From an uncultured Spirochaetales bacterium (GTDB lineage: Bacteria; UBP6; UBA1177): a stretch of 64,000 nt of DNA. Where the stretch lies: NCBI GenBank assembly GCA_902774115.1, contig CACYHH010000002.1:1-64000 (forward strand). Direction: 5' to 3'. Below, piece after piece: positions 2,795 to 60,515 of this stretch. The notes beneath the pieces were generated by a model that saw nothing but the letters and a program-made list of their open reading frames with translations, had not been told where the DNA came from and ran no database searches. The number at the start of each line of letters is the position of its first letter. The first letter of the stretch is position 1. A program made the translations under genes and the position numbers.

Positions 2795-4696
2795 ATGAAA
2801 AAACTAATATTTTTAACCATTCTATTCTTTGCAGCCTGTTCAAATCATTCATCTGTGCCGGATTCTGCAAAAACAAAAGCACGCTATATTTTTTCGGATA
2901 AAAACGGACTTTTCGGTCTTCTTGATGAAAACGGAAAAGAGGTGATTCCGGCTGAATATCTCTACATAGACAAGATAAAAGACGGTCTGATTCCAGCTTT
3001 TACGACCCAAAAAGAGTTTGTTTTTCTCAATGAAACTGGAAAAAAGATAAAAGATGTCAAATTCCGAGACATTGATCGTTCTTATTCGGAAGGACTGCTT
3101 GCAGTTTCGGATATTCAAAGCGGCAACTGGGGATTCGTTGATAAAAATTTGAATTATGTTGCAAAGCCGCAATTCGATACTGTTGACAGATTTTCTAATG
3201 GAACGGCGGAGGTCAGAAAAGACGGTTTCTGGGGAGTTATAAATGAAAAAGGGGATTTTATCGCTAAACCTGAATTTAAAGGAATCATTCGTTTGGATGA
3301 GGGTATGACGGCTCTGAAAAAGGAGACCTTGTGGTTTGTAATAGATAAAAACGGGCTTTTTGTTTTTCCTCCTCAATTCGACGGAATAGATGGTCACAGT
3401 CTCGGGACGATGGTTGTTTCGAAAAACGGAAAATTCAGAGTTGTCGATCTTAAAAAGGCAAAGGTTTCAGAAGAGGAATATGATGGATTTTTCGGAATGA
3501 CCAAAGGGAAAGCTGTTTTAAAAAAAGGTTCGTCTATCTATTTGGTAACCGCTGAAAACAATAAAATTTTTCTTATGCAGGATACGGCAAAAGAGATCAC
3601 CTATATTTTTAACAGCAACGGAAATGCCATCGGAAACAACAGTTTCTATCTTGACTATAAGAAAAAAGACAAGAAAGAAAATCACTTCGTAGTTTTCGAC
3701 GCTTCAACCGGCAAAAAAATCTGCGATAAAGTCAAACCCTCTTTTTTTACAGAAATGGATGAGAACTGCAACGAAAAGATGGAAACTCCGCATAGCATCG
3801 AAATCACAGAGGATGAAGATAGCAAATATGAAAATGTAAGAAAAAGTATGTGCCCTGAAGAAAAATCAGTTTCATTCAAATACAAGGGAAAATGGGGATT
3901 CCTTGACGAAAACGGGAAGGAAATTATTCCGGCAGAATACGATAGCGTAAGCGCGTTTTATTTCGGCAGGACATGGGTTAAGAAGGAAGAACATTACTTC
4001 GTGATAGACAGGAGCGGAAAAAAGATTTTTGAGATAGATCCTGACTGGAAATCTCTTGACGAACTGCGCTATGTCGAGCCTGTCTGCTATGAATGGAAAG
4101 AGAAGGAAATCCTCGCGGAAGATTACTGGCTGCCGAGGAGAAGGATCGAAAAAATGTTCGGGAAAGCCGAACCGAATCCTGTTCTTTTAAAAATGGGAGC
4201 CGATGAACTTCTGCAAAAAATTATTGAACACTATGCTCATTTTCACGATAAAGAATCATGTTATCTGGTGGCTTCCAAAAGTTCTGAAAACACATTCCGC
4301 CGTATCGAAAAGCACGATGTATCGGGTATAGCGGAGAAAATGCAGAAGAACGATGCTGAGAAATTTGTTGAAAAATTCATTGAAACAAACAGAAAATCAA
4401 TAGCCGTTTCAGGTTTGGAAAAATATTCCTGTGAAAAAGACGGTATTGTAAGCGACAGCATCTGTTATGGAGAAAACGGAAGCGAAGAATATGACATGGA
4501 GAGCTGTCTGAATAAAGTTTCAGGACACCGAATCATTAAATTTTCGATCCCTCTCTATGACCCTGAATCAGACACCATAATGGTTTACAGGGAAGAGTAT
4601 TGCGGACCTTTGTGCGGAACAGGCTGGCTTCTGTTTCTTGAGATGAAGGACGGGGAACTGGTTTATACCGGAAGCATCTTTATGTTTATTTCGTGA
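2795..4696 (+). CDS. WG-repeat lipoprotein, candidate immunity or accessory protein
   Basis: The 633-residue product starts with a lipoprotein signal (MKKLIFLTILFFAAC, Cys15). Repeated units of the WG type follow: KNGLFGLLDENGKEVIPAEY near residue 40, then GNWGFVDKN, GFWGVINEKG and a second group near residue 365 (GKWGFLDENGKEIIPAEY). The C-terminal 200 residues are not recognised. It starts 9 bases after the first Rhs stop with a good ribosome site (GGAG), and lies exactly where an immunity gene would be expected between an Rhs gene and its displaced tip. WG repeats are thought to form beta structures in envelope proteins; the immunity role is inferred only from position. Confidence 0.8.
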   Translation: MKKLIFLTILFFAACSNHSSVPDSAKTKARYIFSDKNGLFGLLDENGKEVIPAEYLYIDKIKDGLIPAFTTQKEFVFLNETGKKIKDVKFRDIDRSYSEGLLAVSDIQSGNWGFVDKNLNYVAKPQFDTVDRFSNGTAEVRKDGFWGVINEKGDFIAKPEFKGIIRLDEGMTALKKETLWFVIDKNGLFVFPPQFDGIDGHSLGTMVVSKNGKFRVVDLKKAKVSEEEYDGFFGMTKGKAVLKKGSSIYLVTAENNKIFLMQDTAKEITYIFNSNGNAIGNNSFYLDYKKKDKKENHFVVFDASTGKKICDKVKPSFFTEMDENCNEKMETPHSIEITEDEDSKYENVRKSMCPEEKSVSFKYKGKWGFLDENGKEIIPAEYDSVSAFYFGRTWVKKEEHYFVIDRSGKKIFEIDPDWKSLDELRYVEPVCYEWKEKEILAEDYWLPRRRIEKMFGKAEPNPVLLKMGADELLQKIIEHYAHFHDKESCYLVASKSSENTFRRIEKHDVSGIAEKMQKNDAEKFVEKFIETNRKSIAVSGLEKYSCEKDGIVSDSICYGENGSEEYDMESCLNKVSGHRIIKFSIPLYDPESDTIMVYREEYCGPLCGTGWLLFLEMKDGELVYTGSIFMFIS

Positions 4697-4714
4697 TTCA
4701 AACTGGTAAATTTT

Positions 4715-6889
4715 ATGCATGAAAAACAAATTGAAAATGGCAAGACACTCCGCAAAACTGCAACCGGCAGCGATCTTGATTTGATTGAATACAACAATTC
4801 CGAAATCGCTTCATACAGCCGCGCAAACGGCGTTCTGACTGCCGTCACAAAAGGCCAGAACCTCACCGAAACTTTCAGTTACAACAGCTGGAATATGCTT
4901 GAAAACCACAACATCAAAAAATCTCAAACTGATGTCTATGATATGAGCTACAACTATTCACGCGGCTGGCACCTTGTCGAGAAAGCAGACGGCATCAGGA
5001 ACACATCGGACAAATACAGCTACGATTCCTACTACCGCCTGAAAGAAGTCAAATACGACTTTGCGAACAACGCAGCTGCACGAACCGACAGCTTCTTTGC
5101 TGACGGCGTCCACAACATCGAACAGAGCACCGAAAACGGCGTAACCTATGCATGGGGCGTGGATAAACTCAATCGTTTGCGTGAAAAGGAAATCGGCGGA
5201 AATACTGCAGTCACATACAAATATGACGAGCGGAACAACATGATCGGAGAAGACTTCGACGGAAGTGAGCCAGCTGACATCAGCTACATTTACGACGATT
5301 TGAACCGCCTTGTCGAAGTCAAGGACGGAAGTAATCAAACAATTGCAGCTTATACCTACGACGCGTTTAACCGCAGAATCACAAAAACAGTCGGCAGCAC
5401 GACTGAAAGATATACCTACGACGATTGGGATATTGTAGAAATCTCAACAAATTCAAATGATTATACAAATATCATCGATTCCGGCACAGACAGACATATC
5501 GCGATCGAAGTCACAGCAAACAACACTTCCACACTTTATTATTTCCTGACCGACGAGCGCGGAAATGTGACAGCCCTCACCGATGCAAACGGCAATGTTT
5601 TAGAGCGTTACAGATACCGGGTCTATGGCGATTTTGAGATCCTTGATGCCCAGTTCTCTCCGAAAAACTGCAGCAACCAGACCTGCTACGCGACAAACCT
5701 GCACAACTTCCTCTGGGGCGGCTCACTCTACGAACCCGAAACAAACCTTTATTGGATGCGCAACCGTTATTACCACATCGATATGCACCGCTTCATCAAC
5801 CAAGACCCCATCGGAATCTGGGGTGATGCCAACAATCTCGGCAACGGCTTCGCCTATGTTGCAGGAATGGTCATTGAAGCAAGTGATCCGAGCGGGTTAG
5901 ATGTGGAAGTTATATATTGGCATCCAGTTATAGATGAGGATCATAAGGAATCAATTGCAGGTCATATTTCCATTCGCATAAATGATACTTCTTATTCATG
6001 GGAAGGAGACGGAATGAATATTGATAGTATAGAAAACTATCTTAATGAAAATACGTATTATCGAATGGGTGAAGGAATAACATTGAATCTGTCGGCAGAT
6101 AAAGAAAAAGAATTGAAAAATTACTTGGAAAGTTTACCTCAAGAAAAAGGCTATTACAACTTGATAACTAATAATTGTGGACAGGTTGCACTTAGAGGAA
6201 TTCAGCAACTTAATAATGGAGAACAACCATCTTCTTTTTTTGGGGTAGTTGTAAATTGGCTTTCAAAATTTTGGACTGTTTCTCCTTTTGGTGTAGCTTG
6301 GATTTTAAAACTTTCCAGCTTAAGCAGTAATGTCTATAATCAATATAATAGCAAATTTGTTGGTGTCGAACTAATCCGTTTGAGCAACGGAAAGTTTTTG
6401 AGTTATGAAAAATATGAGAATTCTGATGGTAGTATTACGCGAAAGTATAGCGATGGTTCCGTTGTAAATATCGATAAAAATGGAATAAAAACTATTTTAA
6501 AAGAAGGGAAAAATATAGAGGATATTAAAGCTGATGATTTTAAGTATCCCACTCCAGATGGCGAAGATCCTATAAGTACGATGCAAAATATAATGAAGCT
6601 AAACATATTAACAAAAATGCTCAAACTCGGTGAAAATGAACAACCACCATTTTTTACCGATACAAGCACTGGACCAAACGGAGCAATAATGATTTATCGC
6701 AATCCATATTATGTGAACAAAGACCCGTTAAAAACTATCTTGTTTGATGGAAATAACGGTTCTGGAAAACCCATGATTTATCGCAATCCGTTTGTTCCTG
6801 GTGCAGAATATGGCTATGACTCAACTACTTACGAAAAATTTCAACAAAAAGGATTTATCCAGCCGGAGATTGATCCATGGCTAAGATAA
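4715..6889 (+). CDS. Orphan Rhs tip with papain-like (NlpC/P60-type) toxin domain
   Basis: The 724-residue product lacks an Rhs N-terminus: after eight residues it joins the core at GKTLRKTATG and stays parallel to the first Rhs protein until SDPSGL (about residue 395). The C-terminal region differs. It has GHISIRIND (His near 417) and later NLITNNCGQVALRG (Cys near 489). This His-before-Cys order with N-N-C-G resembles circularly permuted NlpC/P60 or LRAT-like thiol enzymes, so a cysteine peptidase or acyltransferase toxin is my inference. Residues 662-724 are the shared tail. No clear ribosome site precedes the ATG, fitting a silent cassette that gains a full N-terminus by recombination. 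Confidence 0.8.
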   Translation: MHEKQIENGKTLRKTATGSDLDLIEYNNSEIASYSRANGVLTAVTKGQNLTETFSYNSWNMLENHNIKKSQTDVYDMSYNYSRGWHLVEKADGIRNTSDKYSYDSYYRLKEVKYDFANNAAARTDSFFADGVHNIEQSTENGVTYAWGVDKLNRLREKEIGGNTAVTYKYDERNNMIGEDFDGSEPADISYIYDDLNRLVEVKDGSNQTIAAYTYDAFNRRITKTVGSTTERYTYDDWDIVEISTNSNDYTNIIDSGTDRHIAIEVTANNTSTLYYFLTDERGNVTALTDANGNVLERYRYRVYGDFEILDAQFSPKNCSNQTCYATNLHNFLWGGSLYEPETNLYWMRNRYYHIDMHRFINQDPIGIWGDANNLGNGFAYVAGMVIEASDPSGLDVEVIYWHPVIDEDHKESIAGHISIRINDTSYSWEGDGMNIDSIENYLNENTYYRMGEGITLNLSADKEKELKNYLESLPQEKGYYNLITNNCGQVALRGIQQLNNGEQPSSFFGVVVNWLSKFWTVSPFGVAWILKLSSLSSNVYNQYNSKFVGVELIRLSNGKFLSYEKYENSDGSITRKYSDGSVVNIDKNGIKTILKEGKNIEDIKADDFKYPTPDGEDPISTMQNIMKLNILTKMLKLGENEQPPFFTDTSTGPNGAIMIYRNPYYVNKDPLKTILFDGNNGSGKPMIYRNPFVPGAEYGYDSTTYEKFQQKGFIQPEIDPWLR
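4738..5900 (+). repeat. Rhs core duplication, copy 2
   Basis: Direct repeat of 748-1917. The intervening segment holds the first toxin domain and the WG-repeat gene, so recombination between copies would swap one toxin tip for the other. Confidence 0.85.
6698..6889 (+). repeat. Conserved Rhs C-terminal tail, copy 2
   Basis: Gap-free partner of 2594-2785, same length (63 codons plus stop), at the very end of an otherwise different toxin. Confidence 0.85.
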
Positions 6890-56051: not shown

Positions 56052-57878
56052 ATGAAGCAGATTCTTAAAGTCTTGATTTTAAACATGCTTTTTGCAGGAA
56101 TTCTGAATGCTATGCCAATCAGCAATATTCCGACTTTCGAGTATGAAGGCGCTTACGATTACTTTATTCTTTCAAAGTCGCTTCTTGCAAACACAGGGGC
56201 TTATTCGACTTACGAACCGCAGGGCGATACTTCGATAGGTGTCGAGGGTGCGAGCGATTTCCTGCTTGAAAGCGATATCCCGAAAGATGCAGTTGTCGAG
56301 CAGGCCTTTCTTGTCTGGTTCGCTTCGGTGAATGATGCCGACAAAATGATGTTTACTGATAATCAGGTAACATTTATGACTCCCGACGGCGAGGATCACA
56401 CCGTTACAGCTTCACTTCAGGGAAATTCGGCTTCTCCGCAGGGATTTGAGTTCGAATCCATTTACAGAAGCGGCTATTACTACTATGTTTACAGAGTCGA
56501 TGTAACCAATATCATTGCCAATTATCAGTATAGCGGCGAAAACGGCGAAATACGTTCGCTCGCCGGCGAATACAAAGTAAGCGGCGTTGACGACATTTAT
56601 GACTGCGCTCAGAGCGGCAAAAACCATAATTACTGCGTTAATGCAAGCATGATCGGCGGCTGGCAGCTTATTCTTGTTTACGGTTCTTCGCAGATCGCCC
56701 GCAAAAGACTCTATCTTTACAACGGTCTGACCTGGAGTTCCAACACGACACTCAAGCCTACGACGATAAATATCGCCAACTTTGAACTTCCCGAAAAGGC
56801 GGCTGTAAAAGTTTCCTTTGTCACGGCGGACGGCGATGATGTTCTTTCGGCTCCCGAATATCTGGAAGTCAGAGGCGGTCTTGCTTCCCAGTCTCTCGTT
56901 CTCGGCGACGCGGACGGTTCATGCAACCCGCTCAACCAGCCTTTCAACAGCAAATTCAGAACTGTAAACCACAAAGGCGAAGTTTCGGACTGCCGCGAAG
57001 AACTTTCCTTCGATATCGACACTTTTTTTCTGCAGTATGACGAAAATGTTGAAGACAGCATAATAAATCCGCATGTCCAGTACGGCACGAATTCGATGGA
57101 ATTTTACATCAAAACGGGTGCCGACATCGTTCTTACGAACTATGTCATCCTTTCGGTCGATACGCGCCTTCCTGCATTCGATATTCCAGAACAGAACGAG
57201 AAATTTCTCCTTGCCACGACCGGCGAGGACGGCAAAGTCTGCAAGGATACCGCTTTCGGCTATCAGATTGTCGTCGAGAACCACGGTCAGGAACCGGCTG
57301 AATTTGTCATGGTCAGCGATACTCTGAGAGATATGCAGAGTTACATTCCGGGAACTTTCCAGATCGACTACACCGGCACCGGAAAATGTTTCGAAAATTA
57401 TCCCGACAACGGCGATTTCCCGCTCAAATCGGGCATTATGGTTGCCGATAATATGGAAATCTGTCAGAATGAGTCGAACTGCGAGAGAGTTCTCATGCGT
57501 TTCCTCGTAAAGATGCCCGAAAATTCGCCGAAGAACTCTTCTTTCAACAATACCGCTCTCATATGGGATGCAAAAACCGGAGAAGAGTCGGCTTACAAAA
57601 CAAATCAGGGTCTTCCGGTCAGAGCGACTTTCGCTTCTCAGTGCGAGGCACTTGACGATGCTGCGGTCAAGGCAAAGCTTTACACGAAAGAGAGCATGAC
57701 CTGCGACGGCAGCAAGGAAGTTCCCGACGATCCCGAACCGACTACTTCCGACAAAGACGACACCGACAGCGCAGCTCAGCCGGAAGAAGATGCTTCTGAC
57801 GACGCTGGAAAAGAGGAAAACCCGTCCGACAGTGCTGAAGAAGATGACGATTCGGGCTGCACGCTGACACTTATTTAG
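56052..57878 (+). CDS. Secreted beta-rich protein with C-terminal SGC tail
   Basis: 608 residues with signal peptide (cleavage near ILNA). Residues 30-400 are beta-rich, with alternating Gly/Tyr strands and pairs of Cys; DTLRDMQSYIPGTFQIDY near 420 resembles the DUF11-type repeats of surface proteins. A Pro/Asp/Glu/Ser linker (about 555-600) leads to the end DDSGCTLTLI, with Cys603 sixth from the terminus. The next gene's product ends in DSGCSLSVI. No membrane helix follows the Cys, unlike MYXO-CTERM signals. RBS AGGAGG. Likely operon with the protease and UbiA genes. Confidence 0.85.
   Translation: MKQILKVLILNMLFAGILNAMPISNIPTFEYEGAYDYFILSKSLLANTGAYSTYEPQGDTSIGVEGASDFLLESDIPKDAVVEQAFLVWFASVNDADKMMFTDNQVTFMTPDGEDHTVTASLQGNSASPQGFEFESIYRSGYYYYVYRVDVTNIIANYQYSGENGEIRSLAGEYKVSGVDDIYDCAQSGKNHNYCVNASMIGGWQLILVYGSSQIARKRLYLYNGLTWSSNTTLKPTTINIANFELPEKAAVKVSFVTADGDDVLSAPEYLEVRGGLASQSLVLGDADGSCNPLNQPFNSKFRTVNHKGEVSDCREELSFDIDTFFLQYDENVEDSIINPHVQYGTNSMEFYIKTGADIVLTNYVILSVDTRLPAFDIPEQNEKFLLATTGEDGKVCKDTAFGYQIVVENHGQEPAEFVMVSDTLRDMQSYIPGTFQIDYTGTGKCFENYPDNGDFPLKSGIMVADNMEICQNESNCERVLMRFLVKMPENSPKNSSFNNTALIWDAKTGEESAYKTNQGLPVRATFASQCEALDDAAVKAKLYTKESMTCDGSKEVPDDPEPTTSDKDDTDSAAQPEEDASDDAGKEENPSDSAEEDDDSGCTLTLI
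57849..57878 (+). other. C-terminal SGC sorting-like motif, copy 1
   Basis: Encodes the last residues, SGCTLTLI, preceded by an acidic Asp/Glu linker. It matches the end of the next protein (59679-59705) at every chemically important position: D-S-G-C-(T/S)-L-(T/S)-(L/V)-I. Confidence 0.7.
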
Positions 57879-57905
57879 GATACAAACTTTCCAAGGAGTT
57901 TATAA

Positions 57906-59705
57906 ATGAAAAAAATCATGTTGCTTTTGGTTGTTTTACTTCCGTTTTTTATGTTTGCGGAAAATCTTTTCTATTATTCAAACGGCAAGAAAATTCCTCT
58001 TTCGGAGACTTCGGGGTTCACTTTCATCGACGGTAGAGTGACTAAAAACGCCGGGAATCTCCCGGAAAATCTCAAATTCATGCTCAGGCACGAAAACATT
58101 TTCCTTTTTGAAAAACTGAGTTCCGAAAACAGGGCGGAACTGGAGAAATACGGAAAAATTCTTCCGGCATACAACAGGAACGGCGGCGAAAAAGTTTATG
58201 CCAGCGGCATGATTTTCGTGAAAATCCAGGGTGTCGCCGATGTTGAAAAGTGGTGCGAAACCCAAGGTTTGAGCCTTGTCAAAAAGTTTAAATACGCCCC
58301 GGACTGGTATCTTGTCAAAACAACGGAAAATCCGGTCGGAAAATCTGTGGAACTTGTCGAAAAGAAGATTGCGGCGCAGGCTGAGCCGAGCTTTTTCATG
58401 AATTTCGAGAAGAGGACCTACATTCCGAACGATCCTTTGTTTTTCAATCAGTGGCATCTCCACAATTTCGGCGACGCTTCGCTTACCGGAACCGATCACA
58501 CGCATGTCGCCGATGCATGGGATCTGATGCTTGCGTTCAAAGGCGAACTCGGCGGTTCGACGGTAAAACTTGCGATAATCGACGACGGTTTCGATCTTAC
58601 GCATGAAGATTTTCAGGGACGTTTCCTTCCAGGACACGATTTTGCAGACGGAGACGATATGCCTAACCCCGGAGCGCAGGATCAGCACGGAACGTCGGTA
58701 GCCGGAGTTGCAGGCGGTGCGACGGACAACGGGATCGGTATTGCCGGAGCGTGTCCGAACTGTCAGATTATCCCGATAAGAATGAAAATGTCGGGAATAA
58801 CTTCGCTTGACGCTTCTGCGATCGAGGCTTTTGACTGGGCGGCAAATGCCGGTGCCGATATAATCTCGAACAGCTGGGGACCTGCCGACAACAGCGGTCA
58901 GACGGTCGATATGAACCAGACTTTGAAGGATCTTGTTGCAAATATCGCGGTCAACGGCAGAAACGGTCTCGGAACAGTCATCCTTTTTGCTGCAGGAAAC
59001 GGCGGTGAAAGCATCGAAACCGACGGCTTTGCAAGCAACCCCGATGTTTTTGCGATCGGGGCGACAAACGCGTCGGGAAACAGGGCTTCCTATTCCGATT
59101 TCGGCAATTCCCTTGATTTCATGGCTTCGAGCTGCGATATCGATTCTTCGGGCGGTGACGGCTGGGGCGGCGGCAGCTACATCGACGGTATCTGGACGAC
59201 CGACAACATGGGAAATTCAGGCTATAACGCAGGAAACGAGGCTGACGGCGACGCTCTCGGAAACTACACGAACAGTTTCGGAGGAACTTCTTCGGCCTGT
59301 CCTCTTGCTGCCGGTATCACAGGGCTTGTCATGACGGCAAATCCGAATCTTACGAGAGATCAGATATACGAAATTTACAAGGAAACCTCCGACAAAAACG
59401 GTTTTGATGCCTACGATGCCAACGGTTTCAATATGAATTACGGTTACGGCAGGATCAATGCGTGCGAAGCTGTCAAAAAGGCTCTTGAAATGGCGGGAAC
59501 CAGTACTGCGGGCGTCGTTTGCGGCGAAACTCCGGTCGCACCTGAACCTGAACCGGAGCCGGAACCTGAACCGTCTGAAAACGATGACGACAAACCAGCT
59601 GATACGGATACCGATACGGAACCGTCCGAACAACCTGATGAAGATAACGGCGGAGCGATTCCTGTGGTAAAAAAAGATTCCGGCTGCTCTCTTTCCGTTA
59701 TTTAG
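57906..59705 (+). CDS. Secreted subtilisin-family (S8) protease with C-terminal SGC tail
   Basis: 599 residues. Signal peptide (cleavage near MFAEN), an N-terminal pro-region (to about 190) and a subtilase domain with Asp226 (LAIIDDGFD), His261 (DQHGTSVAGVAGG), oxyanion Asn365 (AAGNGGES) and Ser462 (FGGTSSACPLAAG). After a Pro/Glu/Asp repeat linker (545-590) it ends KDSGCSLSVI, with Cys594 sixth from the end. The tail and linker match the preceding protein, so the two are probably handled by the same anchoring route. RBS AAGGAG; 27 bases after the first gene and 3 before the UbiA gene. Confidence 0.92.
   Translation: MKKIMLLLVVLLPFFMFAENLFYYSNGKKIPLSETSGFTFIDGRVTKNAGNLPENLKFMLRHENIFLFEKLSSENRAELEKYGKILPAYNRNGGEKVYASGMIFVKIQGVADVEKWCETQGLSLVKKFKYAPDWYLVKTTENPVGKSVELVEKKIAAQAEPSFFMNFEKRTYIPNDPLFFNQWHLHNFGDASLTGTDHTHVADAWDLMLAFKGELGGSTVKLAIIDDGFDLTHEDFQGRFLPGHDFADGDDMPNPGAQDQHGTSVAGVAGGATDNGIGIAGACPNCQIIPIRMKMSGITSLDASAIEAFDWAANAGADIISNSWGPADNSGQTVDMNQTLKDLVANIAVNGRNGLGTVILFAAGNGGESIETDGFASNPDVFAIGATNASGNRASYSDFGNSLDFMASSCDIDSSGGDGWGGGSYIDGIWTTDNMGNSGYNAGNEADGDALGNYTNSFGGTSSACPLAAGITGLVMTANPNLTRDQIYEIYKETSDKNGFDAYDANGFNMNYGYGRINACEAVKKALEMAGTSTAGVVCGETPVAPEPEPEPEPEPSENDDDKPADTDTDTEPSEQPDEDNGGAIPVVKKDSGCSLSVI
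59679..59705 (+). other. C-terminal SGC sorting-like motif, copy 2
   Basis: Encodes SGCSLSVI at the end of the S8 protease. The gap between the two copies is one gene, and the UbiA prenyltransferase begins three bases later. Confidence 0.7.
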
Positions 59706-59708
59706 CTC

Positions 59709-60515
59709 ATGTTCCGCAAACTTCACGCATTTTTCAGGCTTTACCGTGCAGATGTCTTTCTTCTCTCGTTTCTTGCTTTTTTTGCGGGAAGACTTCTTGG
59801 GAAAGATGATTTTTCATGGCTTTTTTTGGTTCAGGCGCTTTTTGTTGCACTTTTTCCCTATAACTTTGTTTACACGCTCAATTCAATAACCGATGTTGTC
59901 GAAGATTCGGCAAACAAGCCGTGGCGTCCTCTTCCGAGCGGCGTTATAACTCGGCGTGACGCGGTTTTGTGGCTGATTTTTCTTACTTTCGGAACGATAA
60001 CAGGCTCGGTCGTGCTTTTTGAAGGATTGGAAAAATTTCTTGTTTTTTCCGTCCTGATTTTCGGAGTTGCATACTCGCTGCCGCCTTTTACGCTTAAAAA
60101 ACGCGGAGTTGCAGCGTGTCTCGTGACCGGGGTCGGCATAGCTTATCCCATGATAATTGCAGGAGGAAAGAGCTTTCTTCCGTGTTCTCTGAGTCTTCTG
60201 CTTCATGTTTTGGGTGTTACCGCTCTGAAAGATCTTTCCGATACCGAAGGCGACATTCTTGCGGGAAGGAAAAACAGGCTGAGTCTTGAAAAAACTTGTG
60301 CACTTTCGGCATTTTTCATGCTTCTTTCGGCTGCGGGATTCCTGCTTAGCCCGCAGAAAATCGCGGTTATTCTGCCTGTTTCTTCGCTTATCCTTCTTTT
60401 CGCAAATTTCTTCTTCGCAAAAAAGAATTTCAAAGAAAAAATCTACGGAAGGATAATTTTTATCACCGGAATAACAGCGGTCGCTGCTGTTGCAGTGCTG
60501 AAAATAGCTGTCTGA
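59709..60515 (+). CDS. UbiA-family prenyltransferase
   Basis: 268 residues, about eight membrane spans. First aspartate motif: NSITDVVEDSANKPWRPLPSG (N58...D62...D66, close to NDxxDxxxD). Second: LKDLSDTEGD near residue 175, of the K-D-x-x-D-x-x-G-D type. UbiA enzymes use polyprenyl diphosphates and magnesium to prenylate quinone, heme or lipid precursors. It begins three bases after the stop of the SGC-tailed protease, with no site of its own, so it is translationally coupled. A role in modifying those Cys tails is a hypothesis; a quinone or lipid pathway remains the default. Confidence 0.88.
   Translation: MFRKLHAFFRLYRADVFLLSFLAFFAGRLLGKDDFSWLFLVQALFVALFPYNFVYTLNSITDVVEDSANKPWRPLPSGVITRRDAVLWLIFLTFGTITGSVVLFEGLEKFLVFSVLIFGVAYSLPPFTLKKRGVAACLVTGVGIAYPMIIAGGKSFLPCSLSLLLHVLGVTALKDLSDTEGDILAGRKNRLSLEKTCALSAFFMLLSAAGFLLSPQKIAVILPVSSLILLFANFFFAKKNFKEKIYGRIIFITGITAVAAVAVLKIAV

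Follow-up and report, generated by a model that had tools for sequence, protein, structure and literature searches.

A short cysteine tail on exported proteins of candidate phylum UBP6 and its likeness to the MYXO-CTERM signature

Two unrelated exported proteins, encoded side by side, end in almost the same nine residues, which raises the question of what such an ending is for. Both genes lie in the window, by which we mean the whole 64,000-nucleotide stretch of DNA analyzed here. The original prediction was that the ending is a short signal for anchoring or lipidation at the C terminus, possibly served by the adjacent UbiA enzyme or by one encoded elsewhere.

The host is a member of the candidate phylum UBP6 (rumen MAGs). 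The nearest named relatives of the window subtilase are ruminant MAGs, several of them UBP6 (UBA1177, UBA1196, and UBA1209). The phylum is represented in our genome collection by 28 genomes in four families, labeled f1 to f4. Family f1 comprises the host's own genus g1 (15 genomes, including the host genome, G000) and genera g2 to g4; f1 to f3 together hold 25 genomes, and f4 consists of G025 to G027.

The tail in the window, the genome, and the phylum

The first gene (56052..57878, + strand) encodes a DUF11-like secreted protein of 608 aa; a Pfam and NCBIfam search with it gave no match. The second (57906..59705, +) encodes a secreted S8 subtilase of 599 aa (PF00082, E 1.9e-44). Sec signal peptides were read from the sequence of both, MKQILKVLILNMLFAGILNA at 56052..56111 and MKKIMLLLVVLLPFFMFA at 57906..57959, with approximate boundaries. 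The first protein ends ...EEDDDSGCTLTLI and the second ...PVVKKDSGCSLSVI, each followed by a stop codon. An acidic Pro/Asp/Glu linker (57717..57848, +) leads into the tail DSGCTLTLI plus stop (57849..57878, +) of the first, and an acidic Pro/Glu/Asp linker (59532..59675, +) into the tail DSGCSLSVI plus stop (59676..59705, +) of the second, as read from the sequence and, for the tails, also from pattern scans. The description on which the original prediction was built was borne out: the two secreted proteins are adjacent and carry the SGC tail behind an acidic linker, the cysteine is the sixth residue from the C terminus in both, and nothing hydrophobic and nothing basic follows. The proteins are also mutually unrelated, falling into separate BLAST clusters with only the second a Peptidase_S8, and a UbiA-family prenyltransferase gene identified by profile search (59709..60515, +), in the same operon as the subtilase, starts three bases past the subtilase stop. 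Elsewhere in the window, two RHS/YD-repeat proteins (146-2785 and 4715-6889) have near-alike cores and different C-terminal domains, and flank a WG-repeat-like lipoprotein.

The search for further tail proteins that the original prediction called for yielded, with the window's two included, 17 intact Sec-exported proteins in the host genome that have GC[STA] and four further residues, mostly hydrophobic, as their C terminus. This count is a minimum, as it comes from pattern scans and the stretches around their matches and covers only the GC+5 hydrophobic pattern. All 17 have a signal peptide, as scored with a simple script for 15 of them and by eye for the two from the window. By contrast, the tail is absent from the 25 N-terminal lipoproteins that these stretches also encode; since the loci were picked around tails, this is suggestive and no census. 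A permissive pattern, GC-x-phi-x-phi-phi-stop, gave 27 matches in the host genome against 5 for its reverse, and the strict tail pattern gave 13 against 0; the stop was written TRR, which also fits TGG, and TGG-ending matches were discounted by hand. Because forward matches so far outnumber reversed ones, a chance origin of the tail is excluded. The carriers include subtilases, a gingipain-like protease, the DUF11-like first window protein, and others, among them a small Cys-rich secreted paralogous family with eight tail-bearing members. One further secreted protein (L083:10942-11952, -) has SGCTVSLI followed by more residues, possibly an internal tail.

Every one of the 15 genomes in the genus contains the strict tail, at 4 to 13 matches each with 0 in the reversed control, which matched only once in each of two genomes outside the genus. 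In the operon orthologs at 13 fetched loci of relatives among the UBP6 MAGs, the tail is retained and the linker varies in length and sequence. In f2, f3, and g2 to g4, the tail reads GCGC[STA] with three residues to follow, so that four or five residues separate the cysteine from the chain end, depending on the form. This GCGC form is present at 1 to 18 per genome in 10/10 f2, f3, and g2-g4 genomes, with no reversed match in the phylum. Outside the phylum, ten of about 358 genomes have one or two matches, mostly TGG-ending, and only about four have a match with a real stop. Among 45 distinct GC+5 tails, in which the G and the C are fixed by the search pattern, the following positions are occupied by S/A/T, L/M/V/I, L/T/I, F/L/I/V/M, and I/V/F/L/M; the terminal residue is hydrophobic in all 45, which is partly built into the pattern. 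The tails of some f1 genera end in a non-hydrophobic R or S. In two species, the ortholog of the first window protein (L069:4101-5960 and L070:4079-5959) ends SACTILFID or SACTILLID, with Ala in place of Gly and an extra Asp past the tail.

The small secreted family of the genus occupies exchangeable gene slots, bounded by a promoter-like leader on the left and by tail DNA on the right. The leader contains ACTAAATATA(T/A)G with G7-G9 or a long T tract upstream (L074:4133, L075:1365, L082 (-) 3973, and the left flanks of L161 and L169), and these tracts could make expression phase-variable. In several genomes the slot is filled by an unrelated gene with an orphan tail, out of frame, past its stop codon. 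Such orphan tail DNA, 24-49 bp long, lies in the host genome at C2:399592(-), C4:103193(-), C1:158677(+), and C4:106164(-) and at L042, L048, L049, and L052. The downstream flanks of several orphans match loci at which another species has the tail gene intact; genes are thus exchanged at these loci, with the right boundary at the tail DNA. A lipoprotein-acyltransferase unit with an orphan tail end is 92% identical in two species (L078:4590-6239 and L171:7810-9462) and has different surroundings in each, as if it moved as a whole.

Full-length relatives and a candidate protease

A TIGR03901 search found, in at least 16 of the 25 f1 to f3 genomes, 1 to 3 proteins, mostly of about 1000 aa, that bear a signature, a helix, and a basic end (for example, ...EGSCAVTAVDDSNTGVLALLSALLFVLGFAFFTRKKSI in the host genome and ...GACGCTLVAHDSELPATALLTLLFAGIAAAFVRRRFSQS in f3). 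The cut-off is passed only by the long-form proteins of five f3 genomes; the host's own scores 12.1 bits against a cut-off of 20, and most others are likewise below it, although their tripartite architecture is plain from the sequences. Neither window tail gave a TIGR03901 match. The only long-form gene found in the host genome (L154:2797-3939 and 3735-5795) is split into two overlapping frames, through either an assembly frameshift or a real break.

The signatures of the long forms are GGCSIVA or GSCAVTA in the genus, SGCSIVT in f2, GCSCATV, NCTCSVTA, and RGCSITT in other f1 genera, and CGCSVVG, CGCTLVA, CDCSLIAG, and CTCTMVT in f3. The number of cysteines shifts in parallel in short and long forms, with GCS/SCA in the genus and GCGC/CDC/CTC in f3, a co-variation with few independent events behind it. 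The first window protein matches 13 long-form proteins over ~75-170 aa (best E 5e-13), and, since these are homologs, the two endings occur within one protein family. The original prediction had set the tail apart from MYXO-CTERM. The absence of the helix and of the basic cluster stands, but the separation has to be softened, since the short tail is the MYXO-CTERM-like signature followed immediately by the chain end, and the same genomes carry the full form.

Every f1 genome encodes exactly one PF02517 protein. The host's, a candidate protease of the CPBP family (213 aa; contig C7, L088:4874-5515), scores 50.9 bits against a cut-off of 22.4, and its scores against MrtP, MrtC, and Mrt_core are 78-83 bits; the second, non-Mrt-type CPBP proteins of f3 and f4 have far lower Mrt scores. 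With Mrt_core (NF040914), the scan of 61 genomes gave 93-104 bits in f4 and one match of 78-87 bits (78-85 in f1) in each f1 to f3 genome except G024, which is 65% complete. Most CPBP proteins of unrelated genomes reach at most 45 bits, although a few of those genomes (G037, G041, G047, and G055) also have myxosortase-like proteins; that of G055 (L153), at 443 bits as MrtX, served as the positive control. The EExxxR, FxxxH, and HxxxN motifs and the FFPSLLFG stretch of the UBP6 protease align with this bona fide MrtX, and in the alignment that includes MrtX, residues E122, E123, R127, F157, H161, and H198 are invariant. An AlphaFold model of the protease has a pLDDT of 91; Foldseek with it found nothing in the PDB at E<=0.001, nor did the protease match any PDB sequence in a profile search. 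Because the host's Mrt_core score, 79.6 bits, is under the curated cut-off of 100, we call the protein myxosortase-like and not a myxosortase. Family f4, despite its higher-scoring Mrt homolog, has neither GCGC short tails nor TIGR03901 matches.

MYXO-CTERM proteins require the type II secretion system (T2SS) for surface display, MrtX cleavage of TraA requires conserved Cys residues, and the generic MYXO-CTERM signature is reported as GCGC (PMC11980579). The T2SS protein GspD scores over its cut-off in 25/28 genomes of the phylum, the host genome included.

A proposed pathway and its alternatives

The signal peptides on all 17 tail proteins, the lack of tails on the 25 lipoproteins, and the myxosortase-like CPBP protein that accompanies the tail lend good support to the idea of a short signal for anchoring or lipidation. 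We consider it probable that the tail is a stripped-down, helix-less MYXO-CTERM-type signal whose cysteine is lipidated, whose end is trimmed by the Mrt homolog, and whose carriers are exported by the T2SS. The Sec system would carry the protein over the inner membrane, where an inner-membrane enzyme would lipidate the signature cysteine. The single myxosortase-like CPBP protease would then cut off the four or five residues past the cysteine, as Rce1 does with the -aaX of a CaaX box. Finally, the folded hydrolase or adhesin, with its long acidic stalk, would be taken by the T2SS to the cell surface and held there by its C-terminal lipid. We infer the lipidation, the cleavage, the surface location, and the use of one protease for both forms. 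Several observations count against this reading: the sub-cut-off score of the protease (79.6 of 100 bits), the lack of matches to it from Foldseek and from the PDB profile search, the absence of a helix that would present the tail to a membrane enzyme, and the better-scoring Mrt homolog of f4, a family without GCGC tails or TIGR03901 matches. In addition, the few full-length signals could be the protease's only substrates.

This last point leads to an alternative that we regard as unlikely, in which the cysteine is lipidated and the Mrt homolog, serving only the 1 to 3 long forms, leaves the short tail uncut. The tail would then be a stand-alone lipid-attachment box, its hydrophobic residues only guiding the lipidating enzyme. 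The short form has no helix needing removal, lipidation and cleavage are handled as separate steps by Guo et al., and long-form substrates in at least 16/25 f1 to f3 genomes would alone explain why the protease is retained. Against this alternative, the hydrophobic end of all 45 GC+5 tails suits the leaving peptide of a protease, although a lipidating enzyme could want the same.

It seems rather improbable that the tail is not lipidated at all and is instead a docking peptide for a PDZ-like or secretion receptor, or that its cysteine is joined to a surface partner through a disulfide or thioester bond. Hydrophobic free C termini fit PDZ-type readers, and a T2SS is present, but such a role leaves unexplained both the identity of the short tail with the full-length signature and the parallel shift in cysteine number in the two forms, and an R or S, rather than a hydrophobic residue, closes the tail in some f1 genera.

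The suggestion that UbiA serves the tail is left without support, though not disproved. It would make the tail an extracytoplasmic CaaX box, prenylated by the neighboring UbiA and trimmed by an Rce1-like protease, which we consider very improbable. The subtilase-UbiA pair is retained in operons of the genus, yet the operon was seen in that one genus only. Orthologs of the window-type UbiA occur in most f1 to f3 genomes examined, which fits co-inheritance as well as function; in G017 (45%) and G019 (34%) (L157 and L159), of two other genera, they lie beside other genes with no adjoining tail gene. Family f4, without tails, has 0-1 UbiA per genome, but G026 has an Mrt homolog and no UbiA, and UbiA proteins occur in nearly all bacteria (here 55/61 genomes and all 14 controls), with about three unrelated paralogs per genome. 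The UbiA active site is normally reached from the cytoplasm, UbiA enzymes are to our knowledge not known to modify proteins, and f1 has no ICMT homolog. In G017, G022, and G023 (L155, L140, and L141), a different UbiA paralog, of the G000:C1:133098 type, immediately follows a tail gene.

Finally, orphan tail DNA of 24-49 bp does follow unrelated genes, out of frame, where loci have been exchanged, but we reject as barely credible the notion that a recombination site in the DNA at the 3' ends of mobile family genes gave rise to the tail as a by-product, because the subtilase, gingipain-like, and f3 tails, which differ in DNA and vary at third codon positions, retain the shared in-frame protein pattern.

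Comparison with known sorting systems

The resemblance to the MYXO-CTERM/MrtX system of Myxococcus xanthus is broad: the UBP6 carriers, hydrolases and adhesins, have a Sec signal peptide, a disordered linker, and a near-terminal cysteine signature (generic GCGC), and the genome encodes an Mrt-type CPBP protease and a T2SS. Unlike MYXO-CTERM, the UBP6 tail has no transmembrane helix, no Arg-rich basic end, and no TIGR03901 match. Because the definition of MYXO-CTERM includes the helix and the basic end, the short tail is formally no member and is, rather, a variant.

JDVT-CTERM/MrtJ, Synerg-CTERM/MrtS, and CGP-CTERM, reportedly described by Haft in 2024 (cited in PMC11980579), resemble it in their invariant signature cysteine and in having a dedicated protease from the same CPBP superfamily; all three are tripartite, with helix and basic end, unlike the UBP6 tail. 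GlyGly-CTERM/rhombosortase, PEP-CTERM/exosortase, and LPXTG/sortase are likewise C-terminal tags on exported proteins, but with other proteases and other signatures, and again all tripartite. Our literature searches for a helix-less C-terminal sorting signal found no description of one, and we know of no prokaryotic C-terminal sorting signal described other than as tripartite with a helix. Those reviewed in PMC11980579 are tripartite and have a membrane helix. The UBP6 tail suggests that the membrane segment, hitherto regarded as a defining part of sorting tags, is not needed for them to function. A signature-only form would uncouple recognition of the cysteine from membrane anchoring and would tie myxosortase mechanistically to the CaaX protease Rce1. 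As substrates of very small size, short tails would also help in the search for the lipidating enzyme, listed as missing in the myxosortase field. Profiles based on the helix overlook short-tail proteins and leave the surface proteomes of such lineages under-annotated.

The eukaryotic and archaeal CaaX box, with Rce1, likewise has, at the very C terminus, a cysteine followed by a few residues, most of them aliphatic, and has a CPBP glutamic protease as its counterpart to the candidate here. The UBP6 tail differs in having four or five residues past the cysteine where CaaX has three and in sitting on exported proteins. The ICMT profile (PF04140) has no match in any f1 genome, which rules out a full CaaX pathway with ICMT for f1. 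Whether UBP6 has an extracytoplasmic CaaX-like pathway, in which a minimal cysteine tail, lacking any membrane segment, is lipidated on exported proteins and trimmed by the Rce1-like myxosortase homolog, and which is derived from or ancestral to the tripartite MYXO-CTERM signal still found on a few proteins of these genomes, we judge to be evenly poised. In functional terms, the nearest analogy is the CaaX box that Rce1 trims, here placed on proteins that are exported.
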